Source: Plantactinospora sp. BC1
GTDB lineage: Bacteria; Actinomycetota; Actinomycetes; Mycobacteriales; Micromonosporaceae
Direction of reading: 5' to 3'
DNA length: 64,000 nt
NCBI RefSeq assembly: GCF_003030345.1
Contig: NZ_CP028158.1
Span: 1,550,001-1,614,000, forward strand
This document shows, in pieces, positions 39,187 through 58,213 of the stretch. Positions within the stretch are counted from its first letter, which is position 1, and each line of letters opens with the position of its first letter. The notes beneath the pieces were generated by a model. The model was not told where the DNA came from, did no database searches, and saw nothing but the letters and a program-made list of their open reading frames with translations. The position numbers and the translations under genes are program-made.

Positions 39187-39501
39187 TCAGGATCGGCGGG
39201 CCGAGGTCTCCTCCCGGACCACGAACCGGATCGACCTGGCCTCGGTGATGCAGGCGCGCAGCGGCGCCGCCAGTTCACGGTGCCCCGGGCTGCGCTCCCA
39301 CGCCTCGAAGTCGGCCAGTGACGCCCACTCACTCGTGATCAGCCACTGCTCGGAATCGCTCGACGCCTCGCAGACCTGGTCCACCAGGTGCCCCGGCACG
39401 CCCTCGGCGACCTGGTAACGAATCTGCTCGTACGCCTTCAGGAAGTCCTCGGTGCGCTCACGCGGCACCCGGATCAGGAACAGCACCCTGGCCTTCGACA
39501 T
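39187..39501 (-). CDS. ABM-family (antibiotic biosynthesis monooxygenase-like) small protein
   Basis: A 104-residue ferredoxin-like alpha+beta protein. ARVLFLIRVPRERTEDFLKAYEQI opens the fold as an ABM strand and helix; SDSEQWLITSEWASLADFEAWER is the family's central motif (LITSEW..L..FEAWE). Such cofactor-free proteins hydroxylate or help cyclise aromatic polyketides, and a related ORF occurs in spore-pigment clusters. Start ATG at 39501 is 31 bp after the KS-beta stop, making it the last gene of the nine-gene PKS operon. Likely role: late oxidation or folding of the polyketide. Confidence 0.82.
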   Translation of the reverse strand: MSKARVLFLIRVPRERTEDFLKAYEQIRYQVAEGVPGHLVDQVCEASSDSEQWLITSEWASLADFEAWERSPGHRELAAPLRACITEARSIRFVVREETSARRS

Positions 39502-39532: not shown

Positions 39533-40789
39533 CTACGCCGGGCCGCGCCGGACCACCACGGCGCTGTTGAAACCGTCGAACCCGCGCGCCCCGACCAGCG
39601 CCACGTCCACCCGCCGGGGCCCGGACTCCCGGACGAAGTCCAGCTCACAGCCGGGCGCCGGCCGGTCCAGCCCGGCCGTCGGCGGCAGCACCCCGTGCCG
39701 GAGGCTGAGCAGCGCGGTCGCCACGTCCAGCGCCGCCCCGCCCTGGTGCGCCCGGCCGATCAGCGGCTTCTGGGTGGTCACCGGCGGCGGCCGCGTCCCG
39801 AAGACCGCCCACAGCGCCTCGGCCTCGCTGCGGTCGTACCGGGCGACGCCGAGCGCGTCCGGGAAGAACACGTCGACCTCCGCCGGCCGCACGCCGGCCC
39901 GGTCGAGGGCGAGCCGCATCGCCCGGGCGTACTGCACCGGGTCCCCGGCCGCGCGCCGGTCGGTGTGCCGGGCGTCGTGGCTGGCCCCCCAGCCGGCGAC
40001 CTCGGCATAGCCGCGCACCCCCCGGGCCCGGGCGTGGTCCAGATCCTCCACCACGAAGACCGCCCCGCCCTCCCCCGGCACGTAACCGCTGGCCGCCACG
40101 TCGAACGGCCGGTACGCCAACGTCGGCTCCGGACAGGTGCTCAGCAGTCCACCCCGGAGTTGGCAGGTCAGCGCGTACGGGCTCAGCGGGCACTCGGTGC
40201 CGCCGGCCAGCACCACGGGCGTACCGCGCCGGACCATCCGTACCGCGTGGGCGAGGCTGTCCAGCCCACCGGCGGACTCGGCGGCCAGCACCCCGCACGG
40301 GCCCTTGAACTGGTGCCGGATCGAGAGCTGGCCGACGCTCGCCGCGTAGAACCAGGCGATCGACTGGTAGGCCCCGACGGTACGCGCCGGACCACGCCAG
40401 AGCCGTTGCAGTTCCCGCTGCCCGAACAGGTTGCCGCCGGAGGAGCTGGCCAGGGTCACCGCGTACCCGTAGGGATCGTCGGCCGTCTCCGGCAGCCCGG
40501 CGTCGGCGAGCGCGAGTCGGGCCGCCGCGAAGCCGAGGTGCGTCCACCGGTCGGTCTGCACCAACTGCCGGCTGTCGGCGTAGTGCAGCGCGTCGAAGTC
40601 GGCCACCTCGCCGGCGAGCCGGCTGGGATAGCGCTCCGGGTCGAAGAGGGTGATCGGGGCGATCCGGTTCTGCCCGGCCAGTACGCACTTCCAGTGCGCA
40701 TCCGCGCCGATCCCGCTCGGTGCCACCACACCGATCCCGGTGATCACGGCCCGAGGCCGCGACCCGGCTCCGCCCGCCCGCCCGGTCAC
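39533..40789 (-). CDS. Type II PKS ketosynthase beta / chain-length factor
   Basis: A 418-residue ketosynthase-fold protein that pairs with KS-alpha and sets chain length. Start GTG at 40789 overlaps the KS-alpha stop by four bases (GTGA). The fold is intact ([48 protein letters not shown]). The active-site Cys is absent. The aligned segment [17 protein letters not shown] has Ser (residue 172) where KS-alpha has Cys and where most chain-length factors have Gln (DQAGGLD). Catalytic His motifs are also altered ([14 protein letters not shown]). So it is not an active ketosynthase. Priming by malonyl decarboxylation, sometimes attributed to the Gln, cannot be assumed. Confidence 0.93.
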
Positions 40790-42053
40790 CGCTCCGGCCC
40801 GTCGAACCGGGTGAAGACCATCGCCGACTGGAAGCCGCCGAAGCCGCTGCCGACGGAGAGGGCGACCCGCACCGGCAACTCCCGGGCGGTGTTCGGGATG
40901 TAGTCGAGGTCGCACTCGTCGTCCCGGTTGGCCCAGTTCGCCGTCGGCGGCACCACCCCGTGCTCGATGGCCAGCGCGCAGGCCGCCATCTCGATCGCGC
41001 CGATCGCCCCGAGCGAGTGCCCGACCATCGACTTGATCGAGCTGATCGGCACCCCGTACGCCGCCGGGCCGAGCGCCCGCTTGAAGGCCGCCGTCTCGTG
41101 CCGGTCGTTCTGCCGGGTACCCGAGCCGTGCGCGCTGACATACGACACGTCGGCCGGGTCGCACCGGGCCTGCGCCATCGCGTCGTCGATGGCCAGCGCC
41201 ATCTCGACACCGTCCGGACGCAGCCCGGTCATGTGGTAGCCGTTGCTCCGGTTGGCGTAACCGGCCGCCTCGCAGTAGACCCGCGCCCCGCGCCGCCGGG
41301 CGTGCTCCGCCTCCTCCAGGACCAGCACCGCGGCGCCCTCGGCGAGGACGAACCCGTGCCGGTCCCGGTCGAACGGCCGCGAGGCGTGCGCCGGATCGTC
41401 GTTGTCCGGGGTGGTCGCCTTGATCGCGTCGAACGAGGCGACCGTGACCGGCGAGATCGGACTGTCCGAGGCGCCGGCCAGCACCACGTCCGCCTCGTCG
41501 TCGGAGATGAGCTGCTGGCCGTAGCCGATCGCGTCGATCCCGGAGGTGCAGCCGGTGGAGATCACCTGGGCCGGACCGTGCACGCCGTGCCGGCAGGCGA
41601 CGTCGGCGGCGAGACTGCTCGGCATCAGCGCCTGGTAGAGAAACGGACCGGCCCGGTTCGGATCCACCAACCAGTCCGCACCGGAGTCGCTGACCTGCAC
41701 GTACTCCCGTTCCAGCAGCATGGTGCCGCCCACCGCCGAGCCGAGCACCACTCCGGTGCGCTCCCGCGTCGCGTCGGTCAGCTCCAGTCCGCTGTCCGCC
41801 AGCGCCTCGATCGACGCGGCGAGCGCGAACTGGACGTACCGGTCGGCGCGCTGCCGCTCGACGACGCCGAGTCCGGCGCGCACCGGGTCGAAGTCGCACT
41901 CGGCGGCCACCTGCGAGCGGAACGGCGACGGGTCGAAGAAGCTGATCCGTCGGGTCGCCGTGCGGCCGGCGGTGATGGTCGCCCAGAACTCGTCCCGGGT
42001 CGCCCCGCCGGGCGCGACCACTCCGATCCCGGTCACCACGGCACGGCGCCCGG

Positions 42054-42057
<4 letters not shown>
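40786..42057 (-). CDS. Type II PKS ketosynthase alpha
   Basis: A 423-residue ketosynthase that condenses malonyl units on the ACP. Motifs: [19 protein letters not shown] at the start, active-site Cys170 in [16 protein letters not shown], His310 in [15 protein letters not shown] and His347 in [13 protein letters not shown], plus the GFGGFQSA C-terminal loop. GTG start at 42057 overlaps the cupin stop by four bases. With KS-beta, the ACP fusion and the cyclases it forms the minimal aromatic PKS. The motif set and neighbours resemble whiE-type spore-pigment synthases more than reduced angucycline or anthracycline clusters, because no ketoreductase is present. Confidence 0.96.
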
Positions 42058-44820
<2,763 letters not shown>

Positions 44821-45372
44821 TCACGCGGGTAGCAGGGCGATCAGTGGCTGCCCGAACTCGACCGGCTCGCCGTCCCGGACGAGTACCTCGGCGACCCGGC
44901 CGGCCTGGTCGGCGACCACTTCGTTCATCAGCTTCATCGCCTCGACGATGCAGACCACCTGACCGGGCTCCACCTTGTCGCCGACCTCGACGAACGGGGC
45001 GGCACCGGGCTCGGCGGCCTGGTAGTAGGTGCCGACCATCGGCGCGACCACGGTCCGCCGGCCGGCACCGTCGCCCTCGACCCGGTGGTTTCCACGGTCG
45101 GCGGCGTCGGCCGGAGCGGCGGTGGCGAGGTCGGCCGGAGTGTGCCCGGCTGGGCCGCCCGGCTCGGTCGAACCGGACGTGCCGTGCCACTCGATCTCCA
45201 GCACGGTCTCGCCGCTGCGCAGGTGGATCCGGCGTACCGGCCCGGCCGTCTCGGTCAGCAGCCGCCCCGCCTGCCGGCACAGCTCGGCGAGTTCGCCGGA
45301 GGGCGGCTCTGCCGGCTCCGGTCGTACCGGTCCGGCCGGGCCCGGCTGGCCGGGAACGGTCGCGGCGGTCAC
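44821..45372 (-). CDS. accB: Biotin carboxyl carrier protein
   Basis: A 183-residue AccB. The C-terminal 75 residues are the biotinyl domain with the acceptor Lys in IVEAMKLMNE, preceded by VVAPMVGTYYQAAEPGAAPF with the AccB-type thumb. The N-terminal part includes an ELAELCRQAGRLL helix and a Pro/Ala-rich linker, the usual layout. GTG at 45372 overlaps the AccDA stop by four bases. Part of the PKS-embedded acetyl-CoA carboxylase. Confidence 0.94.
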   Translation of the reverse strand: MTAATVPGQPGPAGPVRPEPAEPPSGELAELCRQAGRLLTETAGPVRRIHLRSGETVLEIEWHGTSGSTEPGGPAGHTPADLATAAPADAADRGNHRVEGDGAGRRTVVAPMVGTYYQAAEPGAAPFVEVGDKVEPGQVVCIVEAMKLMNEVVADQAGRVAEVLVRDGEPVEFGQPLIALLPA

Positions 45373-47114
45373 TCGGGACCCGCTTCCGCGCGCAGCACGC
45401 TGGCCGCCCCGCCGTACCTGCGGAACCGCCGCCGCCGACGCCGGACCAGCTCCCCGGCGGGTACGTCGAGCAGCGGCCCGAGGTTCTCCAGCAGCGCCCG
45501 ACGCAGCGACCGGGCCGCCCCGACGGGATCCCGGTGCGCGCCACCGGGCGGCTCGGCGACGATCTCGTCGGCGACCCCGAGCCGCAGCAGGTCCGGTGCG
45601 GTGAGCCGGAGCGCGTCGGCGGCCCGTGGCACGGCGGCCCGGTCGTGCCAGAGGATCGCGGCGCAGCCCTCCGGGCTGATCACCGAGTAGACCGCGTTGC
45701 GCAGCATGAGTACCCGGTCCGCCACCGCCAGCGCGAGCGCCCCGCCGCTGCCTCCCTCGCCGATGATGACCGCGACGACCGGGGTCGGCAGCCCGGTCAT
45801 CGCGAGGATGCTCTCGGCGATCGCGGCGGCCTGACCCTGCTGCTCCGCCTCGACCCCCGGATAGGCGCCCGGGGTGTCGATCAGGGTCACCACCGGCAGG
45901 CCCAGGTTGGCGGCGAGCCGCATCACCCGGATCGCCTTGCGGTAGCCGGCCGGGCTGGCCATGCCGAAGTTGCGGGCCCGCAGCTCCCGGGGCTGGTGCC
46001 CCTTCTGGTGCCCGACCACCGCGACGTAGTGGTCGCCGAGCCGGGCCAGCCCGGCGACGACCGCCGCGCAGTCGACGCCGAGCCGGTCACCGTGCAGCTC
46101 GACGAAGCCGTCGAAGGCGGTGGCCAGGTAGTCCAGCGTGGTGGGTCGGCCGGCGTGCCGGGCGGACCGGACGATCCGCCAGGCATCGCCCAGGTCGTCC
46201 GGGTCGGGCGGCGGAAGGACTCCGGTCGGGCGTTCCGGATCCGGCGCGGCCGCCGTGCCGGAGGGACGGTCCGGGGTCGACGCGACGGCGGCGAGCAGCC
46301 AGCGCAGCCTGGCCCGCAGCGCCCGCCGCTGCACCACCATGTCGACCTGGCCGTGCCGGAGCAGGAAGTCGGTGGTCTGGAAGTCGGGCGGCAGCGTCTG
46401 CCGGATGGTCTCCCGGATCACCCGGGGGCCGGCGAAGCCCAGCCGGGAACCGGTCTCGGCCAGCACGATGTCCGTGCAGGTGGCGAAGGACGCGGCCACC
46501 CCGCCGTAGGTGGGGTCGGTGACCAGGCTGACGGTCAGCAGCCCCGCCTCGCGCAGCGCGGCGATCGCCTGGCTGATCGTCGCCATCTGCATCAGCGCCA
46601 GCACGCCCTCCTGCATCCGGGCACCACCGGAGGCGGTGACCAGGAGCAGCGGCAGGCGGTTGGCCAGGGCGTGCTCGGCGGCGCGGGTGATCAGCTCACC
46701 GGTGACCGAGCCCAGGCTGCCGCCGAGGAACCGGAAGTCCATCACGGCGAGCACCAGGCCGTGCCCACCGAGCGTCGCCGTACCGCAGAGGACCGCCTCG
46801 GCCAGGCCGGTCTCCGCGCGGGCGGCGGCGAGCCGCTGCGGGTACGGCACCGAGTCGACGAACCCGATCGGGTCGACCTGGACAGCCGGGCCGGGCAACG
46901 GCCGGAACGTGTCCCGGTCGACGAGCTGGGCGATCCGCTCCGGCGCGTCCAGCCGGCGGTGGTCCCCACACTCCGGGCAGACGTCGAGGTTGCGCCGCAG
47001 CCGCTTGCGGTAGAGCAGCGCCGGGCAGGAACGGCAGCGGATCCAGGGCTGCTGGTCGAGTTCGGCGTACCGGCCGCGGCGCCTAATCGTGCCGGCCGGC
47101 GTACCCCCGGTCAT
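45369..47114 (-). CDS. accDA: Acetyl-CoA carboxylase carboxyltransferase, AccD-AccA fusion
   Basis: A 581-residue fusion of beta and alpha carboxyltransferase subunits. Residues about 20-270 are AccD-like, with the zinc ribbon CRSC...CPEC (about residues 27-49) and GGARMQEGVLALMQMA. Residues about 310-560 are AccA-like: FGMASPAGYRKAIRVMRLA, LIDTPGAYPGVEAEQQGQ and the oxyanion IIGEGGSGGALALAVAD. The fusion transfers carboxyl from AccB biotin to acetyl-CoA. Most actinomycetes use a PccB-like single CT subunit instead, so this bacterial-type set looks dedicated to the pathway. It overlaps the TcmI-type cyclase by four bases. Confidence 0.95.
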   Translation of the reverse strand: MTGGTPAGTIRRRGRYAELDQQPWIRCRSCPALLYRKRLRRNLDVCPECGDHRRLDAPERIAQLVDRDTFRPLPGPAVQVDPIGFVDSVPYPQRLAAARAETGLAEAVLCGTATLGGHGLVLAVMDFRFLGGSLGSVTGELITRAAEHALANRLPLLLVTASGGARMQEGVLALMQMATISQAIAALREAGLLTVSLVTDPTYGGVAASFATCTDIVLAETGSRLGFAGPRVIRETIRQTLPPDFQTTDFLLRHGQVDMVVQRRALRARLRWLLAAVASTPDRPSGTAAAPDPERPTGVLPPPDPDDLGDAWRIVRSARHAGRPTTLDYLATAFDGFVELHGDRLGVDCAAVVAGLARLGDHYVAVVGHQKGHQPRELRARNFGMASPAGYRKAIRVMRLAANLGLPVVTLIDTPGAYPGVEAEQQGQAAAIAESILAMTGLPTPVVAVIIGEGGSGGALALAVADRVLMLRNAVYSVISPEGCAAILWHDRAAVPRAADALRLTAPDLLRLGVADEIVAEPPGGAHRDPVGAARSLRRALLENLGPLLDVPAGELVRRRRRRFRRYGGAASVLRAEAGPE

Positions 47115-47455
47115 CGCCGTACTCCGGCGGGCTCGGTCGGGGCGTCCCAGCGGTAGAAGCAGCGGGCCATCGCGTCCGCCGGTACCCGCCAGCTCGTCAG
47201 GTACGGCGTGATGTGCGGGGCGAGCCGCTCGCTGACCCGGACGAACTCGGGATGCCGGCGGGCGTTCTCCACCGCGGCGGTACCCGGGCTCTCGGTCTCG
47301 ATCAGGTGCACGTACAGGTCGTGCAGCCGGTAGAGCGAGCGGTGCCGTACGCCCACCAGCCGGGGCAGGTCGGTCCGGTCCGACTCCGCGAAGATCTGCG
47401 CGACCTGCCCCTCGGCGGCCGGTACGACCTTGGCGACGATCAGTGAGCGATCCAT
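47111..47455 (-). CDS. TcmI-type aromatic polyketide cyclase (first gene of the PKS operon)
   Basis: A 114-residue small cyclase of the TcmI / WhiE-VII family. The conserved pattern is visible: SLIVAKVVPAAEGQVAQIFA, VGVRHRSLYRLHDLYVHLIE and, at the end, DAMARCFYRWD. These ferredoxin-like dimers close later rings of aromatic polyketides. ATG at 47455 follows GGGAGG. It is the first gene of the nine-gene operon, with upstream heptamer repeats. A paralogue starts at 49193 on the other strand. Confidence 0.93.
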   Translation of the reverse strand: MDRSLIVAKVVPAAEGQVAQIFAESDRTDLPRLVGVRHRSLYRLHDLYVHLIETESPGTAAVENARRHPEFVRVSERLAPHITPYLTSWRVPADAMARCFYRWDAPTEPAGVRR

Positions 47456-47590
47456 GGCGCAGCCTCCCTGGCGGTTCCCGCGCTCCGGTTGGGTGACACC
47501 GGCACCCGGTCGCGACAAAGAGCCTCTCCCCCGGCTTCTCCCCCGACTGCGACCTCGTCCGAACGGCTGGTGACCACCCTGCCGACCGGG

Positions 47591-47653
47591 TGTCAACGGA
47601 ATGTCACCCGATCGCGTACGACCGCCCCCCGGCGTGGTGACGCTCCGGTGACG
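47591..47653. promoter_or_regulatory. SARP-type heptamer repeats in the divergent PKS/SARP region
   Basis: Two direct repeats face opposite ways. On the minus strand GGTGACA (47608-47602), 4 bp, GTTGACA (47597-47591) points to the PKS operon. On the plus strand GGTGACG (47636-47642), 4 bp, GGTGACG (47647-47653) points to the SARP gene, with CACAAT (47663-47668) 9 bp after it as a possible -10. Both have an 11-bp period, the known geometry of SARP operators. The same motif recurs at 48988-49049. Confidence 0.75.
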
Positions 47654-47960
47654 GCGTACCGGCACAATGCCCGGTCGCGGGCCGGCGGAACAGCCCGGCA
47701 GCGGCGCCCCGGCGATCGAGCGGGTGGGCTTATGCGCAGGTCAGAGCGGTTGCTCGGCGGCCGAACGGCCAGGTCGGAATGTCGACCGGCGGATTGACCG
47801 AGCGTAACGGCGATTGATAACCTTCGTCACGCTTTGCGGTGTCGGTCGCCCGGACGGGCCCGGCGTGCGGAGCGGCATCGGCATACCGGGGAGCTGGGAC
47901 GGGGCGGTCCGGGCAGAGCGGACTTCGGGACACGGGTTCCGGGTGCAGGAGGGTGGGGCC

Positions 47961-48833
47961 GTGACTCCTCAGGAGAGCGCGCCACACGACGGGGCGCACG
48001 GAGCACCCGCCCATCCGTCCGGGCGCCAGCCCGACCGGGCGATCCACCTGTTCCTGCTGGACGGGTTCAGCCTGCTGCACGACGGGACACCGGTGGTCGT
48101 ACCGCGTGGACTGCAACGGATCATCGCGCTGGTCGGGTTGCGGCCGGGCGCGACCCGGGCACACCTGGCCGGTCTGCTCTGGCCGGACACCCCGGAGGAG
48201 CGGGCGATGTCCTCCCTGCGTACGGCGCTGTGGCGGCTGCGCCAGGAGGGCAGTTGCCCGGTGCTCACCGCCGGCGACACGGTACGCCTCGACCCGGCGG
48301 TACGGCTGGACATCGACGACCTCGTCCGGGCCGCCGAACGGGTACGCGACGGCGGTGATCCGCGCTGGGCGGCGAGGATCCGTGGTGCCGGACGGCACGA
48401 CCTGCTCCCCGGCTGGTACGACGAGTGGGTCCTGCTGGAACGGGAGCGGCTGCGCCAGCTCCGGCTGCACATGCTGGAGGACATCGCCCGGGGTCACCTG
48501 CACGCCGGGCAGCACGGCGAGGCGTTGCAGGCCGCTCTGGAGGCGGTCCGCGCCGAGCCGCTGCGGGAGACGCCGCACCGCCTGATCGTCGAGATCCACC
48601 TCGACGAGGGGAACGCCTACGAGGCGCTCCAGGCCTTCTACGTCTACCGCGACCTGCTGCTCCGCGAGCTGCAACTGGAACCGTCCGAGACGATGTGCGA
48701 CCTGCTCAGTGACCTGCTCGCGCCGATCTCCCGGCCGGCGGGGGCACGCCTGTCGGGTGCCCGGCCACCGGCGGGGCGCGCCGAGACGTACCCGGGCCGG
48801 TCGGCGCTGCCGGCGATGCCGGTGCGGCGCTGA
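47961..48833 (+). CDS. SARP-family pathway-specific transcriptional activator
   Basis: A 290-residue Streptomyces antibiotic regulatory protein. The OmpR-like winged helix is at about residues 25-110 (IHLFLLDGFSLLHDGTPVVV, RAMSSLRTALWRLRQEG) and the BTAD domain at about 115-260 (EWVLLERERLRQLRLHMLED, GEALQAALEAVRAEPLRE, AFYVYRDLLLRELQLEPSE). There is no ATPase domain, so it is a small DnrI/RedD-size SARP. GTG at 47961 is chosen because AGGAGGG precedes it and the domain starts soon after; a TTG at 47814 would add 49 residues without support. It is divergent from the PKS operon and upstream of the cyclase/hydroxylase pair. Heptamer repeats on both flanks make it the likely activator of both units. 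Confidence 0.92.
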   Translation: MTPQESAPHDGAHGAPAHPSGRQPDRAIHLFLLDGFSLLHDGTPVVVPRGLQRIIALVGLRPGATRAHLAGLLWPDTPEERAMSSLRTALWRLRQEGSCPVLTAGDTVRLDPAVRLDIDDLVRAAERVRDGGDPRWAARIRGAGRHDLLPGWYDEWVLLERERLRQLRLHMLEDIARGHLHAGQHGEALQAALEAVRAEPLRETPHRLIVEIHLDEGNAYEALQAFYVYRDLLLRELQLEPSETMCDLLSDLLAPISRPAGARLSGARPPAGRAETYPGRSALPAMPVRR

Positions 48834-48987
48834 TCGGTCTCCCCGCCGCTTCCCGGCCGGCGCCGTCGACGGCATCCGTCGCGGTCGTTGTCCGCTCCGC
48901 CCCGCACGTGGTCCGTCGGCTCCGGGCCTGGTCCGTCCGCTGTGGGCGTGGCGCTGTGGTCGGGAGATGGTCCCACGTCGGCGCGGG

Positions 48988-49054
48988 CGTCACCGCGGCG
49001 TCACCGCAGGAGCACCGTGACGACACCCGCCGGTGACGGTCGGGTGACGTCACC
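48988..49054. promoter_or_regulatory. SARP-type heptamer repeats upstream of the cyclase/hydroxylase operon
   Basis: On the minus strand GGTGACG occurs at 49005-48999 and 48994-48988, on the plus strand at 49032-49038 and 49043-49049. Each pair has a 4-bp spacer and an 11-bp period. The last copy is part of the 12-bp palindrome GGTGACGTCACC (49043-49054). The cyclase ATG is 144 bp downstream of the last forward heptamer. No gene is supported in 48834-49192. Confidence 0.75.
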
Positions 49055-49192
49055 GTCGGCATGGTGATCGGGCCCGACCGGACGGCCAGTTGGTCGTCCC
49101 GGCCGCACCGGGTCCGGGCGCCCGCCGGACCCGGTCCGGACCGATCCGGTACGGGCAGCCAGCCGAGCCGTCGCAGCCAGTGGGGAGACGAG

Positions 49193-49561
49193 ATGAATCG
49201 CGTGCTGATCGTGGGCAGGATCGTTCCGGGGACCGAGGAGGAGATCGCCAAGATCTTCGCGGAGTCCGACGACACGGACCTGCACACCGTCACCGGTGTG
49301 CGGCACCGCTCGCTCTACCACCTCGACGACCTCTGCCTGCACCTGATGGAGACCGACGACTCCGGCCCGTCCCGGTTGGAACAGGCGAACCGGCATCCGC
49401 TCTTCGTCAGCGTGACGCAGCGGCTGGGACAGTACATCTCGCCGTACTCGCCGAACTGGCGGTCGCCGCGCGACGCGATGGCCCGGTGCTTCTACCGCTG
49501 GGACGGCCCGGGCGCCACGGTCGCGATGCCACCGGCCAGCCCGGCCGGCAGCCCCAACTAG
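49193..49561 (+). CDS. TcmI-type aromatic polyketide cyclase (second copy)
   Basis: A 122-residue paralogue of the 47111-47455 product. Shared blocks are VGRIVPGTEEEIAKIFAESD, VTGVRHRSLYHLDDLCLHLM and DAMARCFYRWDG. ATG at 49193 follows GGGGAGA. It leads a two-gene operon with the FAD hydroxylase, 8 bp downstream. WhiE-type clusters normally carry one such cyclase, so a second copy may close a different ring or act after hydroxylation. Confidence 0.92.
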   Translation: MNRVLIVGRIVPGTEEEIAKIFAESDDTDLHTVTGVRHRSLYHLDDLCLHLMETDDSGPSRLEQANRHPLFVSVTQRLGQYISPYSPNWRSPRDAMARCFYRWDGPGATVAMPPASPAGSPN

Positions 49562-49569
49562 GGGGTTCG

Positions 49570-50919
49570 ATGCCCGCCCGACCGATACACGTGCTCGTCA
49601 TCGGTGCCGGTACCGGCGGCATGTGCCTGGCGCACGGCCTCCGGCGGGCCGGCATCAGCGTCGCGGTCTACGAGCGGTACCGCGACCGTGGCGACGGCCT
49701 GCTCGGCTACCGGGTCGGGATCAACCCGACCGGCTGCCGGGCACTGCGCGAGTGCCTGCCGCCGGAACTGTTCAGCACGTTCCTCGCCACCTGCGCCCGG
49801 CCGCCCGGATACTTCAACGTGCTCACCGAGCAACTGCACCGGACGGCCTCCTTCGCGCTGCGCCCCGAGGCCGACCCGACCAGCATCGACCAGTCGGTCT
49901 CCCGGATGACGCTGCGCCAGGTGCTGCTGACCGGCATGGACGACGTGGTGCACTTCGGCAAGACGTTCACGCACTACGCGCAGCACGACGACGGCCGGGT
50001 CACCGCGTACTTCGCCGACGGCAGCTCGGCCACCGGGGACCTGCTGGTCGCTGCCGACGGCACGCACTCGGCGGTACGCCGGCAGTACCTGCCGCACGCC
50101 GAGGTCAGGGACGCCGGGAGCATCAACATCGCCAGCAAGATCCCGCTGACCGAGCGGACCCGTGCCCTGCTCACCGAGGAGATGCACCGGGGCATCTCGC
50201 TGATCTTCGGTGCCGGCGGCGTGATGGGCGTACTGCACGTGATGGAGTTCAAGTGGGACCAGCGCGGCTCGGTCAAGCCCGGGGTCGGGGTCACCGACGC
50301 CCGGCTGATCGGGCAGTGGCCGGGGCTGCTCTTCGACAACACCCGGGACTGCATCAACCTGATCATCTGGAGCGCGGCGAGTCGCTTCCCCTCCGACGTG
50401 CTGGAGTTGCGCGGCGAACGCCTCGCCGAGGTCGCCCGGGAGCTGACCCGGAACTGGCATCCGAACCTGCGTGAGCTGCTGCGGTGCAGCGACACCGGCA
50501 GCGTCATCCCGATCAAGGTCGCCACCTCGGTACCGGTCGCGCCCTGGCCGGCCAGCAACGTGACCCTGCTCGGCGACGCCATCCACACCATGACGCCGGG
50601 CCGGGGGGTCGGCGCCAACACCGCGTTGCGGGATGCCGCGCTGCTGCACCGGCAACTGGTCGCGGCGGCGGCCGGCGCCAAGCCGCTGCTCGGCAGCATC
50701 GCGGACTACGAGACGGAGATGATCCGCTACGGCTTCGCCCGGGTCGCCGACTCGCTGCGTACCAACGGCACCAACGGCGACGACCCGATCTACAAGCCGG
50801 TGATCGGCCGGCTCGCCATGCTGGCCGCGCGCGGCTATTTCAGCGTGACCAGCCGGCTTCCGCCGCTGCGCCGCCGGTTCGTCGAGGAGCTCTACAACTA
50901 TCGCGGCGCGGAGACCTGA
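49570..50919 (+). CDS. FAD-dependent aromatic hydroxylase (WhiE-VIII / PHBH-like)
   Basis: A 449-residue class A flavin monooxygenase. The FAD fingerprint is VLVIGAGTGGMCLAHGLRRA with acidic end VYER (about residues 8-40), the DG motif is DLLVAADGTHSAVRRQYL, and the GD motif is VTLLGDAIHTMTPGRGVGAN. It has no thioredoxin-like extension, unlike the RdmE/MtmOIV class. Eight bp separate it from the cyclase gene, so the pair is co-transcribed. Divergent FAD hydroxylases of this kind finish spore-pigment aromatics (WhiE ORFVIII is the comparison), and NADPH is the expected donor. Confidence 0.92.
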   Translation: MPARPIHVLVIGAGTGGMCLAHGLRRAGISVAVYERYRDRGDGLLGYRVGINPTGCRALRECLPPELFSTFLATCARPPGYFNVLTEQLHRTASFALRPEADPTSIDQSVSRMTLRQVLLTGMDDVVHFGKTFTHYAQHDDGRVTAYFADGSSATGDLLVAADGTHSAVRRQYLPHAEVRDAGSINIASKIPLTERTRALLTEEMHRGISLIFGAGGVMGVLHVMEFKWDQRGSVKPGVGVTDARLIGQWPGLLFDNTRDCINLIIWSAASRFPSDVLELRGERLAEVARELTRNWHPNLRELLRCSDTGSVIPIKVATSVPVAPWPASNVTLLGDAIHTMTPGRGVGANTALRDAALLHRQLVAAAAGAKPLLGSIADYETEMIRYGFARVADSLRTNGTNGDDPIYKPVIGRLAMLAARGYFSVTSRLPPLRRRFVEELYNYRGAET

Positions 50920-51990: not shown

Positions 51991-53028
51991 TCAGGCCAGC
52001 ACGGGGGTGCTGTCCCGGATGACCACCTCGGCCCGGATCCGGCGCAGCCGGGGCCGCTCGGCCCGGGGCTGCATCACGAGTTCCAGGGCGGCGGCGCCGA
52101 CCTCCTCCAGCGGCAGCCGTACCGTGGTGAGCGACGGCGTGACGTCCCGGAGCGTGACGATGTCGTCGAAGCCGGCCACCGCCATCCCGCCGGGCAGCGG
52201 CACCCCGTGGTCGCGCAGTGCCGAGATGGCCCCGACCGCCATCACGTCGTTGACCGCGAAGACGCAACTGGGCGGCAGGTCGTGGGCGAGCAGGTCGCGC
52301 ATGGTGCGGTAACCGCCGTCCCGGGTGAAGTCGCCGTACGCCACCCGCGTCCTGGGCAGCGCGACACCGGCGTCGGCGAGTCCGGCCTGGAACCCGGCGA
52401 GCCGGTCCCGGGCGGTGAGCAGATGCCTCGGCCCGGCGAGTACGGCGAACCGCCGGTGCCCCAACTCGACCAGCCGCCGGGCGAGCAGCCGGGCCCCGTC
52501 CCGGTTCTCCAGCAGCACCGTGTCGATCGGCAGGACGTGCTGGCTGATCAGCGCGACCCGGGCGCCCGCCTCCTCCAGGCTGCGCAGCCGGGCGCCGAGC
52601 CGCTCCCGCAGCGCCCGGTCGGCGGTCCGGCTGCCGGCCAGGATGACCGCCTGGGGCCGCTGGCCGCGCAGGGTCGCCAGGTAGTCGAGTTCCCGCTCGG
52701 CCCGGCCGGTGGTGCTGCACATCATCACGGTGCTGCCGTACCGCTCGGCGGCGCGCATCACGCCGGCCGCGATGGACGAGAAGAACGGGTCGGCGATGTC
52801 GTGCACCAGCAGTCCGACCAGGTTGGTGCGCCCCCGGGCCATCGCCTGGGCCGGCGCGTTGGCCGAGTAGTTCAGCGCGGTGGCGGCGGCGAGCACCCGG
52901 TCCATCAGGTCGGCCCGCACCTGGCGGCTGCCGTTGCCGTTGAGCACCCGGGACGCGGTCGCCACCGAGACGCCGGCCTGCTGCGCCACGTCCATCAGCG
53001 TGACGGTTCCGGACGATCGTCTGGTCAT
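51991..53028 (-). CDS. LacI-family transcriptional regulator
   Basis: A 345-residue repressor. The N-terminal HTH is VTLMDVAQQAGVSVATASRV followed by the LNG.. hinge helix (about residues 8-60). The periplasmic-binding-like sugar domain has LVGLLVHDIADPFFSSIAAG, FAVNDVMAVGAISALRDHG and VAGFDDI, all typical. It is divergent from the membrane-protein gene and the PmoA-like catabolic operon, so it is the likely repressor of that operon; candidate operators lie at 54252-54325. The inducer sugar is unknown. Confidence 0.94.
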   Translation of the reverse strand: MTRRSSGTVTLMDVAQQAGVSVATASRVLNGNGSRQVRADLMDRVLAAATALNYSANAPAQAMARGRTNLVGLLVHDIADPFFSSIAAGVMRAAERYGSTVMMCSTTGRAERELDYLATLRGQRPQAVILAGSRTADRALRERLGARLRSLEEAGARVALISQHVLPIDTVLLENRDGARLLARRLVELGHRRFAVLAGPRHLLTARDRLAGFQAGLADAGVALPRTRVAYGDFTRDGGYRTMRDLLAHDLPPSCVFAVNDVMAVGAISALRDHGVPLPGGMAVAGFDDIVTLRDVTPSLTTVRLPLEEVGAAALELVMQPRAERPRLRRIRAEVVIRDSTPVLA

Positions 53029-53222
53029 GGTGGCGGCCCCGAGGAGGTGTCGGTGTGGCGTCCGGGCCGGCGACCCGCCCGGCATCCGCACCCTACCGTC
53101 GGCCCGGCCCGATCCGGTCCACAGTGGCGCCAGCGCGACCGGAGAGCCCCTCCCCCGGTGCGGGGGACCGGTTCCCTCCGCAGCGGGAGGACGGTCCGGC
53201 CCGGCTGCGGCACCGTCGGGGC

Positions 53223-54281
53223 ATGACCACGACACCGGGGACCGGCCGGCGGGGCGGCGCGCTGGTCGCGCTCGGCTTCGCCCTCGGGTACGGACTGCTG
53301 CGGCTCTACTGGGCGACCGGCGGCCGGTGGGGTTACACCGCCTGTGACCGTACCCGCTCGCCCGGACCGGCCGAGACAGCCGACGGATGCGGGGCGGAGC
53401 GGCTGGCGACGTTGCCGTTCTGGTCCGGTTGGGGCTCGGTGCTGCTCTGCGCCGCCCTCGTCGCCGTGGCGGCGGTGGCCGCGCTCCGGCCCGGTCGGCT
53501 CGGCTCGGTCGCCGCCTGGGTCTGCGCGGCGGCCCTGCTGATACTCGCGTTTCCGGGACACCTGCTCTTCCAGATTCCGATGGCGCTTGCCGGCCGGCCC
53601 TCCGACTGGGCCGACCTGACGGGCCGGCTGCTGCTGCTCGGCGGTGGGCTGTCGTTCGCCGCGGCTGCCGCCGGCACGGCCCGCCGGGACACCCCGGTGT
53701 GCCGACCGGAGCCTGGGCCGGTGCCCGCCTGGACCCGCCGCTGGGCGTACGCGGCCTTCCTGTTGCCGGTGCTCGGGTTCACCGTGCCGCACGCCTGCTG
53801 GCTGCTGGGCGTCCCGTTGGGCATCCCCGCCGACGAACTGCGCCGGGCCGCCGAGGAGATCGGGGCGCTGCCGGGGCTGCTGCTCACGCTGGCTCCGCTG
53901 CTCGGCGGGCTGCTCACGCTCGGCCTGGCCGCCCGGTGGGGGCAGGTCCTCCCCGGTTGGCTGCCGGGGCTGGCCGGGCGCCGGGTACCGCCCGCGCTGG
54001 CCGTGGTGCCGGCCGGGGTGACCGCGCTGGCGCTGGTCGCGTACGGGGTGATCGGCATCGTGATGATCGCCGAGGCGCTGGCCACCGGGGCCACCACCTG
54101 GGCGGAGCTGCGTACCGGCTGGGCGGTCGCCGGCACCGAGCTGGTCTTCCTCGGCTGGGGCGTCGCGCTGGCGGTGACGACCGCCGGTTACCACCGCACC
54201 ACCCGGCCGAGGGTGCCGGTCGGAGTGGGCCGCAGCGGCGGGACGGCGGCCGAAAGTCTTTCAGGTGGTGTTGGATCTTGA
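53223..54281 (+). CDS. Integral membrane protein of unknown function
   Basis: A 352-residue protein with about eight hydrophobic segments (for example ALVALGFALGYGLLRLYWA, GSVLLCAALVAVAAVAAL, FLLPVLGFTVPHACWLLGV and GVIGIVMIAEAL). Two Cys in the first extracellular loop (YTACDR, DGCGAE) may form a disulfide. No transporter or enzyme motif is visible. ATG at 53223 was chosen at the first hydrophobic block. It is divergent from the LacI gene and ends 70 bp before the PmoA-like gene; small hairpins (for example 53151-53167) lie in the shared upstream region. Function unknown. Confidence 0.7.
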   Translation: MTTTPGTGRRGGALVALGFALGYGLLRLYWATGGRWGYTACDRTRSPGPAETADGCGAERLATLPFWSGWGSVLLCAALVAVAAVAALRPGRLGSVAAWVCAAALLILAFPGHLLFQIPMALAGRPSDWADLTGRLLLLGGGLSFAAAAAGTARRDTPVCRPEPGPVPAWTRRWAYAAFLLPVLGFTVPHACWLLGVPLGIPADELRRAAEEIGALPGLLLTLAPLLGGLLTLGLAARWGQVLPGWLPGLAGRRVPPALAVVPAGVTALALVAYGVIGIVMIAEALATGATTWAELRTGWAVAGTELVFLGWGVALAVTTAGYHRTTRPRVPVGVGRSGGTAAESLSGGVGS

Positions 54282-54325
54282 CGTTGCCGAGGGAAGGCGG
54301 TTAGCTCGGGAAAGCGGTTACCGCC
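54252..54325 (+). promoter_or_regulatory. Candidate LacI operators and promoter of the PmoA-like operon
   Basis: GAAAG-T-CTTTC (54252-54262) is a perfect palindrome like LacI-family sites. TTGACG (54278-54283), 18 bp, TAGCTC (54302-54307) is a weak promoter. GGGAAAGCGGTTACCGCC (54308-54325) lies over the predicted start and includes GCGGT-T-ACCGC. The first site overlaps the end of the membrane-protein gene. Confidence 0.45.
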
Positions 54326-54351
54326 ACGCCACGAAAGGCACCGTCGCTTCC

Positions 54352-55278
54352 ATGACCTCCGCGGAGAACACCACCGGCCGGATCACCGTGACCCACGAAC
54401 ACGGCCGCCAGATCGTCGTCGACGCGGACGGCGTGGAGATCGCCACCTACGTGTACGACCCTCCGGTGCCGGCCTTCGAGGGCCCCAAGCCCTACCTGCA
54501 CCCGCTGCGCACCCTCGACGGAGCCCTCGTCTCGGCGTACCGGCCGAACGACCACCGGTGGCACAAGGGTCTCCAGATGACGATCTCGCACCTCTCCGGG
54601 CAGAACTTCTGGGGCGGCAACTCGTACGTGCACGGCGAGGGCTACCTCGTACGGGACAACGTGGGCCGGATGCGGCACGATGCCTTCGAGCTGGTCGACG
54701 TCACCCCGACCGAACTGACCCTGCGGGAGTCGCTGACCTGGATCACCTCGACCGACGAACACTGGGTCGCCGAGCGGCGGGAACTGCGGATCCACGGGGT
54801 GGACCCCGCACGCGGCACCTGGATGCTCGACTTCCGCACCGAACTGCGCAACATCCGGGGCGCGGAGCTGCGGGTCGGCAGCCCGACCACGCACGGCCGG
54901 CCGAACGCCGGCTACACGGGATTCTTCTGGCGGGGGCCGCGCGGCTGGACCGATGGCGAGATCATCACGGCCGACGGTGGTGGCGGGCCGGAGAGCATGG
55001 GTCGGCAGTCTCCGTGGCTGGCGTACACCGGGCGGCACGACGAGGTCGACGGCGGCGGCACCCTACTCGTCTTCGCCGGCACCTCCAGCGCGGCCGTACC
55101 TATCAAGTGGTTCGTCCGCAACACCCCCTTCCCGGCCGTCAACCCCTCCCCCGCCTTCGACGAGGAGGTGGTGCTCGCGCCCGACGACAGCCTCCGGCTC
55201 GCCCACCGGGTGGTCTTCGCCGACCGGGCCTGGCAGCGGGCCGAGATCGAGGCGTTCGCCGCGGAACACGCGCCATGA
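54352..55278 (+). CDS. PmoA-like (DUF6807) protein, copy 1
   Basis: A 308-residue protein of the DUF6807/PmoA-related family. Conserved blocks are YLHPLRTLDGALVSAYRPND, HRWHKGLQMTISHLSGQNFW, GGNSYV and TTHGRPNAGYTGFFWRGPRG. The His-rich HxWHKG motif is probably the active or binding site. Families of this type occur in actinobacterial sugar-catabolic loci, next to Gfo/Idh/MocA dehydrogenases, with no settled biochemical function. A paralogue (57134-58213) lies in the same operon. ATG at 54352 is the first after the promoter. It overlaps the cupin gene by four bases. Confidence 0.82.
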   Translation: MTSAENTTGRITVTHEHGRQIVVDADGVEIATYVYDPPVPAFEGPKPYLHPLRTLDGALVSAYRPNDHRWHKGLQMTISHLSGQNFWGGNSYVHGEGYLVRDNVGRMRHDAFELVDVTPTELTLRESLTWITSTDEHWVAERRELRIHGVDPARGTWMLDFRTELRNIRGAELRVGSPTTHGRPNAGYTGFFWRGPRGWTDGEIITADGGGGPESMGRQSPWLAYTGRHDEVDGGGTLLVFAGTSSAAVPIKWFVRNTPFPAVNPSPAFDEEVVLAPDDSLRLAHRVVFADRAWQRAEIEAFAAEHAP

Positions 55279-56027
55279 CCGGCGACGACACGGCGCCGCC
55301 GCCCTTTCCCGGCGCCGTCGGCATCACCAACCTGCGGGTCTATCCCTGGCAGACCGACGACGGCCTGCACGGCGGCACCCCGCACGTGCACCTCTGCTGC
55401 ACCGAGTGCTACGTGGTGGTCGGCGGCCGAGGACGGCTCCAGACCCTGACCCGGCGGGGCTTCGAGGAATCACCGCTGGCCCCCGGCGACGTGCTCTGGT
55501 TCACCCCGGGCACCATCCACCGGGCGGTCAACGACGACGGGGCACTCCAGGTCGTCGTGATCATGCAGAACAGCGGGCTGCCGGAGGCCGGCGACGCCGT
55601 ACTCACGCTGCCGCCGGACCAGCTCGCCGACCCGGCGACGTACCGGCGGGCGGTCTCGCTGACCGGGCCGGACGGCTCCGACCCGCCCTCGGCCGAGCGG
55701 GCCCGGGCCCGCCGCGACCTGGCCATCGAGGGCTTCGCCGAACTCCGCCGCCGCTGCGCGGCCGGGGACACCGCCGCGCTCGACGACTTCTACACGGCCG
55801 CCGCCGCCCTGGTACGCCCGCAGCTCGACGCCTGGCAGGAGCGCTGGGAGCAGGGGCCGGCGGCGGCGAGCCGGCAGACCGGGGAACAGCTCGACGCGCT
55901 GCGGCGCGGCGACCACAGCCACCTCGGCGACGCCACCGTCAGCCGGATCGTCCAACCCGAGCAGACGACCCTGGGGATGTGCGGCTTCCTCTCCCCGTAC
56001 GACCCGCTCCGCGCCCGGCGCGACTGA
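55275..56027 (+). CDS. Cupin-domain protein of the PmoA-like catabolic operon
   Basis: A 250-residue protein. The N-terminal 110 residues are a cupin barrel: GTPHVHLCCTECYVVVGGRG (HxH..E region) and VLWFTPGTIHRAVNDDGALQ with the second-motif His. The C-terminal half (about 120-250) is helical (LDDFYTAAAALVRPQLDAWQ, ERWEQGPA) and has no family signature I recognise. Coupled by ATGA to the PmoA-like gene. Its likely role is isomerisation or sensing of a sugar acid in the operon's pathway, an inference from position. Confidence 0.82.
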   Translation: MTGDDTAPPPFPGAVGITNLRVYPWQTDDGLHGGTPHVHLCCTECYVVVGGRGRLQTLTRRGFEESPLAPGDVLWFTPGTIHRAVNDDGALQVVVIMQNSGLPEAGDAVLTLPPDQLADPATYRRAVSLTGPDGSDPPSAERARARRDLAIEGFAELRRRCAAGDTAALDDFYTAAAALVRPQLDAWQERWEQGPAAASRQTGEQLDALRRGDHSHLGDATVSRIVQPEQTTLGMCGFLSPYDPLRARRD

Positions 56028-56060
56028 GCACCGCTGGCACCACCTCGCTAAGGAGCACCT

Positions 56061-57140
56061 GTGGAACCCATCCGCGCCGCCGTGGTCGGGACCGGAAACA
56101 TCGCCCGGCTGCACGCCGAGGCGCTGCGGCAGCTCGGCGACGAGGTACGCCTCGTCGGCGCCGTCGACACCGACGCCGGCCGGCTGTCGGCGTTCTGCGA
56201 CCGCTACGACGTACCGGCGAGGCATCCCGACGTGGCCAGCCTGCTGGAGAAGGAGCGGCCCGAGCTGGTGCACGTCTGCACCCCGCCCGGCGCGCACCAC
56301 GAGCTGGCCCTCGCCTGCCTGCGGGCCGGCGCCAACGTGCTGGTCGAGAAGCCGCCGACGCTGAACCTCGGCGAGCTGGACGAGCTGGCCGAGGCGGAGC
56401 GGCGACACGGGGCGGCGCTGGCCACCGTCTTCCAGCACCGGTTCGGCACCGGTGCGCTGCGGCTGCGCGCCCTGCTCGACGCCGGAGTGCTGGGCCGGCC
56501 GCTGATGGCGGTCTGCCACACCACCTGGTTCCGCCCGCAGTCCTACTTCGACGTCGAGTGGCGGGGGCGCTGGGACACCGAGGGCGGCGGTCCGACGATG
56601 GGGCACGGCATCCACCAGATGGATCTGCTCTGCGCGATCCTCGGCGACTGGACCGAGGTCTCCGCCCTGGCCCGGCAGCAGGCCCGGCGATCGGAGACCG
56701 AGGACCTGAGCATGGCGCACGTCAGCTTCGCCAACGGGGCGGTGGCCAGCGTGGTGAACAGCCTGCTGTCGGTCCGCGAGGAGAGCTACCTGCGGTTCGA
56801 CTTCGAGCGGGCCACGGTCGAGCTGACCCACCTGTACGGCTACGGCGACGACGACTGGCGGATCACCCCGGCAGCGGAGTACGCCGACGAGGTGCTGGCG
56901 GCCTGGCGGACCGGTGCCGCCGGGGTACGCAGCAGCCACCGGGCGCAGTTCGCCGAGGTGCTCCGGAGCCTGCGCGCCGGCAGCCCGCCACCGGTCACCT
57001 CGGCGGAGACCCGGCGGACGATGCGACTGGTCGCCGGGGTGTACGCGTCGGCGTTCACCCGCAGACCGGTCCGGCCGGACGAGCTGGGTGAGGAGTCGCC
57101 GTTCTACCGGCGGATGCAGGGGGACGGGCCGCGATGGTGA
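56061..57140 (+). CDS. Gfo/Idh/MocA-family NAD(P)-dependent dehydrogenase
   Basis: A 359-residue sugar oxidoreductase. The Rossmann fingerprint is AAVVGTGNIARLHAEALRQL (residues about 6-25), the EKP motif is LVEKPPTLNLGELDEL, and the catalytic-region Asp/His are in GHGIHQMDLLCAILGDW. GTG at 56061 follows AAGGAG. It overlaps the second PmoA-like gene by 7 bp. These enzymes oxidise a hydroxyl of a sugar or cyclitol; with two PmoA-like proteins and a cupin it suggests catabolism of an unusual sugar. Substrate unknown. Confidence 0.93.
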   Translation: MEPIRAAVVGTGNIARLHAEALRQLGDEVRLVGAVDTDAGRLSAFCDRYDVPARHPDVASLLEKERPELVHVCTPPGAHHELALACLRAGANVLVEKPPTLNLGELDELAEAERRHGAALATVFQHRFGTGALRLRALLDAGVLGRPLMAVCHTTWFRPQSYFDVEWRGRWDTEGGGPTMGHGIHQMDLLCAILGDWTEVSALARQQARRSETEDLSMAHVSFANGAVASVVNSLLSVREESYLRFDFERATVELTHLYGYGDDDWRITPAAEYADEVLAAWRTGAAGVRSSHRAQFAEVLRSLRAGSPPPVTSAETRRTMRLVAGVYASAFTRRPVRPDELGEESPFYRRMQGDGPRW

Positions 57141-58213
57141 ACGGTGGTCCACTGGTGCCCGCCGCGGCACCGCCTCCGCCGGCCGTACCCGTTGCCTCGG
57201 CCCGTCCGCCGCTGCCCACCGGGGCCGTCCCGGCGCAGGGCGCGGCGGCCGGCGGCGCCGGGAACGGGCTGGCCGTCAGCCACGACGTCGGCCGGTCGGT
57301 GCGGGTCGGCTGGCGCGGTGCGGAGCTGTTCCACTACGTCTACACCCCGCAGGAGCCCCGGGAGGAGGCGCCGCGACCCTACCTCCACCCGCTGCGGACC
57401 CTCGCCGGCAACGTCGTCAGCCTGTACCGGCCGCACGACCACCTCTGGCACAAGGGACTCTGCTTCGGCATCTCCAACTTCGGGCCGGACAACTTCTGGG
57501 GTGGCGGGACCTACCTTCGCGGCCAGGGGTACCGCAGGCTCGACAACATCGGGGTGGTCGAACACCTCGACTTCCCGGTGCTGCGCTGCGACCCCGACGC
57601 CGTACGCCTGGTCGAACGGCTGCGCTGGGTGACCCGCGACGGCCGCCGGGTCGGCTCCGAACAACGTCGGCTGGCGGTGGCGGTCTGGGCCAACCAGAGC
57701 GCGTGGCGGCTGCGGTTCGAGACCGTACTGCGCAACGACGGCGACACGGTGATCATGATCGGCAGTCCGACCACCCAGGGGCGGGAGAACGCCGGCTACG
57801 GCGGACTGCTCTGGCAGGGGCCGCGCTCGTTCCGGGGCGGCCGGGTGGTGACCCCGGCCGGGGTCGGCGCGGACGAACTGATGGGCTGGCGGGGCCCGTG
57901 GCTCGGCTTCGTCGGCCGGCACGACGGTCTCGGGCCGGCCGAGACCCTCGCGTCGACGCTGGTCTTCCGGGACGACCCGACGAATCCGGGCGCACCCACC
58001 CGGTGGTTCGTCCGCACCGAGCCGTACGCCTGCCTCGGCCCGGCCCCGTTCTTCGACCGGGAGTACCCCTTCGCACCCGGCACCGAACTGCGGCTGCGCT
58101 ACGACGTCGTGGTCGCCGACGGCGAACGCGACCCGGCCGGCTGCGCCCGGCTGGCCGACCGGGCCGGCGAGACCGAGCTGCTGACCGACCCGGCCGGGGA
58201 GGGCTGGTCCTGA
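57134..58213 (+). CDS. PmoA-like (DUF6807) protein, copy 2
   Basis: A 359-residue paralogue of the 54352 product with a longer N-terminus of about 45 Pro/Ala/Gly-rich residues. The shared blocks are YLHPLRTLAGNVVSLYRPHD, HLWHKGLCFGISNFGPDNFW, TTQGRENAGYGGLLWQGPRS and PTRWFVRTEPYACLG. The HxWHKG motif and the closing WFVR segment are conserved, so both copies should have similar chemistry. It is last in the operon and overlaps the dehydrogenase gene by 7 bp. No signal peptide is evident; the Pro/Ala tail is probably a linker. Confidence 0.82.
   Translation: MVNGGPLVPAAAPPPPAVPVASARPPLPTGAVPAQGAAAGGAGNGLAVSHDVGRSVRVGWRGAELFHYVYTPQEPREEAPRPYLHPLRTLAGNVVSLYRPHDHLWHKGLCFGISNFGPDNFWGGGTYLRGQGYRRLDNIGVVEHLDFPVLRCDPDAVRLVERLRWVTRDGRRVGSEQRRLAVAVWANQSAWRLRFETVLRNDGDTVIMIGSPTTQGRENAGYGGLLWQGPRSFRGGRVVTPAGVGADELMGWRGPWLGFVGRHDGLGPAETLASTLVFRDDPTNPGAPTRWFVRTEPYACLGPAPFFDREYPFAPGTELRLRYDVVVADGERDPAGCARLADRAGETELLTDPAGEGWS

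Follow-up and report, generated by a model that had tools for sequence, protein, structure and literature searches.

Paired heptamer repeats flanking a SARP gene are probable operators for two-directional activation of a pigment-type polyketide cluster in Plantactinospora

Four direct heptamer repeats lie in the two intergenic regions on either side of a small SARP regulator gene (47961-48833, plus strand) in Plantactinospora sp. BC1. These sites are very probably operators of the adjoining SARP, which would activate the surrounding aromatic polyketide cluster in both directions. The initial annotation of this DNA had proposed the same role, and it is the most likely one given the concentration of the sites at the locus, a paired arrangement that recurs in 71 of 72 related loci, and a conserved -10-like hexamer near the spacing expected of SARPs. 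Operators built from heptamer repeats with an 11-bp period are already known for SARPs. A GGTGACR-type SARP heptamer, a fixed back-to-back pairing of sites, and their spread to tail-sheath loci were not found in searches of open-access papers, in keeping with the earlier claim that the heptamer and circuit are undescribed. Among papers with both SARP and similar letters in the available text, GTGAC in PMC6988585 is a GlnR box, and GTGAC/TGACG letters in PMC7480387 and PMC6283541 are primers. PMC5930380 contains one TGACG place and also mentions SARP.

Heptamer repeats are concentrated at the SARP locus

The window (the whole stretch of 64,000 nucleotides that was analyzed) contains GGTGACG-N4-GGTGACG exactly three times, at 47636-47653 and 49032-49049 on the plus strand and at 48988-49005 on the minus strand. 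GGTGACA-N4-GTTGACA is present as a single copy at 47591-47608 on the minus strand. The motif, positions, and counts first reported were thus reproduced. As direct heptamer repeats with a 4-bp spacer, and hence an 11-bp period, the sites have the form of SARP operators. The pattern GGTGACR-N4-GNTGACR is found four times in the window, whereas 100 dinucleotide shuffles of the window averaged 0.03 matches and never exceeded 1, which upholds the view that a chance origin is very unlikely.

For specificity to this cluster, the initial annotation named a genome-wide scan as the check and many scattered copies as the outcome that would count against its reading. Across the whole 8.33-Mb genome, the strict pattern matched six times, with four matches at the SARP locus, and the reversed-pattern control gave 0 matches. 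With only six strict copies genome-wide, four of them here, the scan favors specificity in the source genome. One of the remaining two matches is inside an open frame, and the other (genome coordinates C1:2521615-2521632) runs across the start of a DarT-like (thymidine ADP-ribosyltransferase) ORF. The genus is less clean. Across seven Plantactinospora genomes, including the source, single strict sites number 47, against 4 for the reversed control; 21 of the 47 belong to the SARP locus and 26 are outside it. Some of these 26 sites may be further targets, or composition may account for the excess.

The sites form back-to-back pairs that are conserved in Micromonosporaceae

The four sites make up two divergent (back-to-back) pairs, a feature absent from the initial annotation. 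In pair A, the leftward operator GGTGACATTCCGTTGACA (47591-47608, minus strand) is on the side of the polyketide synthase (PKS) operon, and the rightward operator GGTGACGCTCCGGTGACG (47636-47653, plus strand) is oriented towards the SARP gene; the start offset is 45 bp and the spacer is 27 bp. Pair B has an offset of 44 bp and a spacer of 26 bp. Its rightward operator GGTGACGGTCGGGTGACG (49032-49049, plus strand) is on the side of the cyclase/hydroxylase pair, and its leftward operator GGTGACGCCGCGGTGACG (48988-49005, minus strand) faces no gene and points at the 3' end of the SARP gene. This layout raises the question of whether two SARP dimers, and with them two polymerases, cooperate.

The other six Plantactinospora genomes (L080-L085) all have pair A, likewise with an offset of 45 bp. 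A strict composite pattern of the paired operator matched six of the seven genomes of the genus, and in the seventh (G005, locus L085) pair A has one mismatch. Among 354 Micromonosporaceae genomes, the composite operator was detected at 41 places in 37 genomes, with none for the reversed control. Thirty loci were fetched from the 31 places outside the genus, and all 30 contain a SARP orthologue (63-72% identity) within ~1.5 kb. In the other seven genomes with the composite operator, SARP is alongside, as judged by coordinates.

A SARP match at 1e-40 was detected in 190 of the 354 genomes, versus only 37 with the strict composite pattern. Because that pattern is narrow, we picked 72 loci via the SARP protein. 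The set comprises the top 70 entries when genomes are ranked by SARP match, plus G147 and G353, which were taken out of order for genus spread; two of the 70, G179 and G153, were taken from loci L056 and L050, which entered through the operator pattern. We then scored inverted pairs over 28 consensus positions, allowing offsets from 20 to 90 bp. A pair scoring at least 24/28 was present in 71 of the 72 loci, whereas the best score in 360 dinucleotide shuffles was 23, with none at 24. The offset was 42-45 bp in 70 of the 71 paired loci. Over all 72 loci, the best offset was 42 (19 loci), 43 (7 loci), 44 (4 loci, one of these at 22/28), 45 (41 loci), or 34 (1 locus). After dereplication at 90% protein identity, the pair was kept in 27 of 27 loci. 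In L109, the offset of pair A is 34 rather than 45 bp, which is 11 bp shorter, or about one helical turn.

Conservation within the heptamers (72-locus set, n = 288) is highest for A at position 5 (288/288), followed by C at position 6 (284) and T at position 3 (277). Scores of at least 13/14 were reached by the rightward A site in 68 of 72 loci and by the leftward A site in 63. Downstream of SARP, a plus-strand site scoring at least 12/14 was present in 60 of 72 loci, and the scanned stretch contained no such site in the other 12. In one of those 12 (G001), the missing site is explained by the extra sequence present in Plantactinospora alkalitolerans (L009), in which ~1.6 kb separates SARP from the cyclase gene. 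There, the cyclase gene is still adjoined by a pair with an offset of 43 (scores, 13/14 and 14/14), and CATGGT follows at offset 10. A leftward partner for pair B (at least 12/14, offset 43-44) was detected in 7 of 72 loci (L079-L083, L085, and L099), plus L009.

Conserved -10-like elements follow the two outward-facing sites

A -10-like hexamer, CAGGGT (47576-47581, minus strand), begins 9 nt past the distal heptamer of the leftward operator in pair A, and CATGGT (49060-49065, plus strand) begins 10 nt past the distal heptamer of the rightward B site. Of the 72 loci, 53 have CANNGT at offset 10 on the PKS side, and another 7, the source window among them, have it at offset 9. On the cyclase side, 54 of the 60 loci that have the site show CANNGT at offset 10. 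The element accompanies two of the four sites, 9-10 nt out, which is near but not equal to the 8 bp quoted for SARPs (PMC10936776). In the afsS promoter, AfsR has a 22-bp box from -40 to -19, and CACTGT is the -10 element (PMC10936776). If CACTGT is assumed to occupy -12 to -7, the gap after the second 11-bp unit in AfsR is 6 nt, equal to the 10 nt seen here minus the 4-bp spacer.

The rightward A site differs. A possible -10 element, CACAAT (47663-47668, plus strand), follows it by 9 nt, but CANNGT was found at offset 9 or 10 in 0 of 72 loci, and the looser [CT]ANNNT at offset 9-10 followed this site in 13 of 72 loci versus 63 of 72 on the left. The site lies ~325 bp upstream of the SARP start. 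A TTGAC-N15-TTGATAA block at 47794-47821 (plus strand) may act as the proximal promoter for SARP. In 40 of 72 loci, a TTGATA[AG] element, usually in the form TTGAC-N15-TTGATAA, is nearer to the SARP start than the rightward A site. Three targets had been proposed for these sites. Control of the PKS operon and the cyclase/hydroxylase pair is backed by the conserved -10-like hexamers, but the case for the SARP gene itself is weak on the grounds just given, and a promoter function for the rightward A site is uncertain. The stretch 3' of this site reads CAA.CTGTG.A..AGCTATG in 49 of 71 loci. In the window (47636-47690) and 49 relatives, this stretch is in roughly 11-bp register with the heptamers, and it may represent a TTGACG-N16-TATG promoter or further degenerate repeats.

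On this basis, we propose that SARP would bind each GGTGACR-N4-GNTGACR repeat as a side-by-side dimer, each heptamer being contacted by one protomer. At the leftward site 47591-47608 and the rightward site 49032-49049, the bound protein could stand in for a -35 element and recruit RNA polymerase to the CANNGT -10 elements 9-10 nt downstream, which would activate the PKS operon from the former and the cyclase/hydroxylase pair from the latter. As for the rightward A site, it might serve autoregulation, or its sole role might be to position a second dimer back to back with the one on the leftward site.

The regulator resembles AfsR in its predicted DNA-contacting residues

The SARP gene, for which we assumed a GTG start, encodes a small protein that matches Pfam BTAD (2.1e-15) and has no Pfam HTH match. 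Its AlphaFold model has a mean pLDDT of 83.5. Comparison of this model with known structures yielded six matches at 1e-3 or better, and the sole PDB entries among them were AfsR (8k60/8hvr initiation-complex chains) and EmbR. The model aligns with both over ~250 columns, which supports a winged-helix DNA-binding domain with BTAD after it. In AfsR, R92 contacts the third base of the repeat, T, and T88 contacts the opposite strand (PMC10936776). Both residues have counterparts at the same residue numbers in SARP, and the third heptamer base, the predicted R92 contact, is the T kept in 277 of 288 heptamers.

The likeness to AfsR and the afs box of Streptomyces coelicolor afsS extends to the regulator fold, to two 11-bp direct repeats, to R87, T88, R92, and R94 in the recognition helix, and to a poor CA-type -10 element after the repeats (CACTGT at afsS; PMC10936776). 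The two systems differ in that the repeat here is GGTGACG rather than the CGTT(T/C)ATCG of AfsR, SARP is small and lacks NOD/TPR, W91 replaces S91, and the sites are cluster-situated and arranged in back-to-back pairs. With the small SARPs ActII-ORF4, DnrI, and PapR2, the system shares 4-bp-spaced heptamers near cluster promoters and a SARP gene within the cluster, but unlike those proteins, SARP here is not matched by the Pfam HTH model. The heptamer differs from the TCGAGCG of ActII-ORF4, from the GTCAGSS of PapR2, and from the CGGCAAG of the SARP-LAL protein PimR.

Many SARP-type proteins of Micromonosporales have a BTAD without an HTH match, "suggesting a different subfamily" (PMC7040171). 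SARP fits this group, and we propose the GGTGACR-type heptamer as its DNA code. A group previously only flagged as odd for its BTAD without HTH (PMC7040171) would thereby gain a testable operator code. Such a code also offers a means to activate pigment-type PKS clusters of this kind or to predict their targets; SARP matches at 1e-40 are present in 190 of 354 Micromonosporaceae genomes.

Similar sites recur beside distant SARP homologues in unrelated loci

Conservation within one cluster cannot separate SARP from the other regulators of the cluster, so we examined 53 loci with distant SARP homologues in other gene neighborhoods. Orthologues (L007-L013, L015, and L041), L045, L047, L048, L150 (the same as L026), and the loci of SARP itself and its orthologues (L158, L159, and L162) were left out of this set. 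None of the 53 loci contained a match at 1e-8 to the cluster's other proteins, with the 23 class-wide loci spanning only ~1.5 kb on each side.

A perfect 14/14 repeat was present within 250 bp of the SARP gene in 12 of 53 loci, whereas 300 column-permuted heptamers averaged 0.17 such loci and reached at most 8. At the looser threshold of 13/14, a site was present in 18 loci, a number also reached by 1 of the 300 permuted heptamers. The sites tracked the recognition helix. Homologues with W91 and R/K92 had a perfect site in 11 of 30 cases versus 1 of 23 for the others (P = 0.005), and a site of at least 13/14 in 16 of 30 versus 2 of 23 (P = 0.0006); both are Fisher tests that ignore shared descent, and the values are optimistic because relatives are not independent. 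L046, which has no aligned helix, was counted among the 23 others. The correspondence is incomplete. No perfect site was present near the gene for 19 of the 30 homologues with the W-R helix, L157 (62% identical to SARP over 237 residues) has no perfect repeat within 250 bp, and L175 has a perfect repeat yet no W91. Among homologues of at most 51% identity, a de novo search for the paired geometry, run with no shuffle control, returned only L026 and L040 at the loosest allowed score; this search is insensitive, because it also missed some orthologues (e.g., L011, L086, and L088).

Five of the 53 loci contain a contractile tail-sheath gene (L020, L022, L025, L042, and L153), and all five have a perfect repeat near SARP. 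The sheath genes were identified by Pfam matches in four loci and by a partial tblastn match of 87 residues in L153. The repeat is located ~50 bp before the sheath ORF in L042 (8722-8739). In L022 (8774-8791), it overlaps the sheath ORF at the 5' end as called, and in L020 and L025 it precedes the SARP gene. In Streptomyces, sheath clusters have a named regulator, SCO4263/slpR, which is called LuxR-type (PMC8505568), and the main text of PMC10020575 makes no mention of SARP. The repeats at sheath loci point to a possible mode of control for some contractile injection loci, besides the SCO4263/slpR type.

Since the site recurs beside distant SARPs in unrelated loci and tracks the W-R pair, the heptamer appears tied to SARP and not to the cluster. 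Although concentrated here within the genome, this type of site is broader than the initial annotation claimed and is not confined to the cluster, as it recurs beside some homologous SARPs elsewhere. We lean slightly towards the existence of a separate SARP subfamily, invisible to HTH models and marked by the W-R pair, that reads GTGACG repeats across Actinobacteria and controls both pigment clusters and contractile-injection loci. If so, one regulator-operator code would serve two unrelated functions, with the pigment side using back-to-back operators at a 42-45 bp offset.

Other candidate readers of the sites

PHO boxes, through which PhoP exerts phosphate control, also have an 11-bp period, and their GTTCACC-type unit has TCACC in common with CGTCACC, the reverse complement of the heptamer. 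However, the PHO heptamer as it would read on this strand, GGTGAAC, is found in 0 of 288 heptamers, so the sites are not built from GTTCACC-type units, and the source genome carries a canonical PHO box, GTTCACCCTGCGTTCA, ~260 bp upstream of a pstS match. Even with the overlap of AfsR and PhoP at afsS (PMC10972967), PhoP is an extremely improbable reader of these repeats. For actII-orf4 and redZ, GTGAC has been put forward as a GlnR box (PMC6988585), but the second box, GAAAC, is present in 0 of the 144 sites, and binding by GlnR would leave the inverted-pair geometry and the concentration beside one SARP unexplained. GlnR sites consist of two boxes 11 bp apart, GTnAC-N6-GAAAC, in which GAAAC is the b-box; the repeats do not have this form, and we give a role for GlnR hardly any weight. 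The developmental regulators BldM-WhiI control whiE in Streptomyces venezuelae, in contrast to the cluster here with its own SARP, and their half-site CGGGTGA overlaps GGTGACG (PMC4125116). If BldM-WhiI bound the sites, SARP would be incidental. BldM-WhiI-like matches with up to two mismatches number 38 in the window, against a mean of 23.55 and a largest count of 35 in 100 shuffles, and four of the 38 are in the two intergenic stretches (864 of 64,000 bases), at 47481-47496, 47502-47517, 47846-47861, and 49032-49047, the last of which overlaps the rightward B site. All four have two mismatches to the Group II site TGnnCCGnnCGGGTGA and do not qualify as such sites, and the palindromic Group I site shows no enrichment. 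Neither the 11-bp direct repeats nor their recurrence beside SARPs in unrelated loci are explained by BldM-WhiI, which makes these proteins very unlikely as the main readers, but a joint developmental input alongside SARP is possible.

A narrower version of the SARP model would have the protein bind only the two promoter-proximal sites, with the other two being relics or part of a duplicated intergenic segment. The restriction of fixed-spacing CANNGT to the leftward A and rightward B sites is consistent with this, as is the rarity of the leftward B partner (7 of 72 loci at offset 43-44). Against it, the rightward A site is conserved at least as well as the leftward one (68 versus 63 of 72 loci at 13/14 or better), although the two differ in downstream context. 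We regard this version as doubtful but deserving of consideration, and we favor SARP as the reader of all four sites.

The cluster resembles whiE and probably makes a spore pigment-type polyketide

The leftward operon (minus strand) begins with a TcmI-type polyketide cyclase gene (47111-47455), followed by genes for an acetyl-CoA carboxylase carboxyltransferase with fused beta and alpha parts (AccAD; 45369-47114), a biotin carboxyl carrier protein (AccB; 44821-45372), and a biotin carboxylase (AccC; 43374-44801). An ACP and a polyketide cyclase/aromatase share one open frame whose start is not fixed (42565-43374). L007 and L010-L013 likewise have a long frame without interruption, which suggests that an ACP-cyclase fusion may be ancestral. 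A cupin protein (42054-42572), two ketosynthases that by position are alpha (40786-42057) and beta/chain length factor (39533-40786, 5' end approximate), and a 104-aa ABM-domain protein (39187-39501) complete this side. On the plus strand, the SARP gene is followed by genes for a second TcmI-type cyclase (49193-49561), a FAD-dependent hydroxylase (49570-50919), and MarR-GNAT. The Micromonospora loci L010 and L012 have the same gene set minus the carboxylase genes and MarR-GNAT.

At the level of Pfam gene content, the cluster contains the whiE gene set, which consists of genes for a cupin, a ketosynthase pair, an ACP, an aromatase/cyclase, a TcmI cyclase, an ABM protein, and a FAD hydroxylase. 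Based on this content, the product is probably a spore pigment-type aromatic polyketide. Unlike whiE, the cluster includes a SARP gene, a second cyclase gene, and acetyl-CoA carboxylase genes of its own. Its ABM protein also lacks a C-terminal cyclase domain like the one reported in WhiE protein 1 (PMC6689052). All but one of the Micromonospora strains tested are reported to have whiE genes (PMC5765111). Beside the cluster, positions 51991-58213 of the window encode two DUF6807 proteins, a GFO/IDH/MocA oxidoreductase, and a LacI-type regulator, and this region is apparently an adjoining sugar-use locus.
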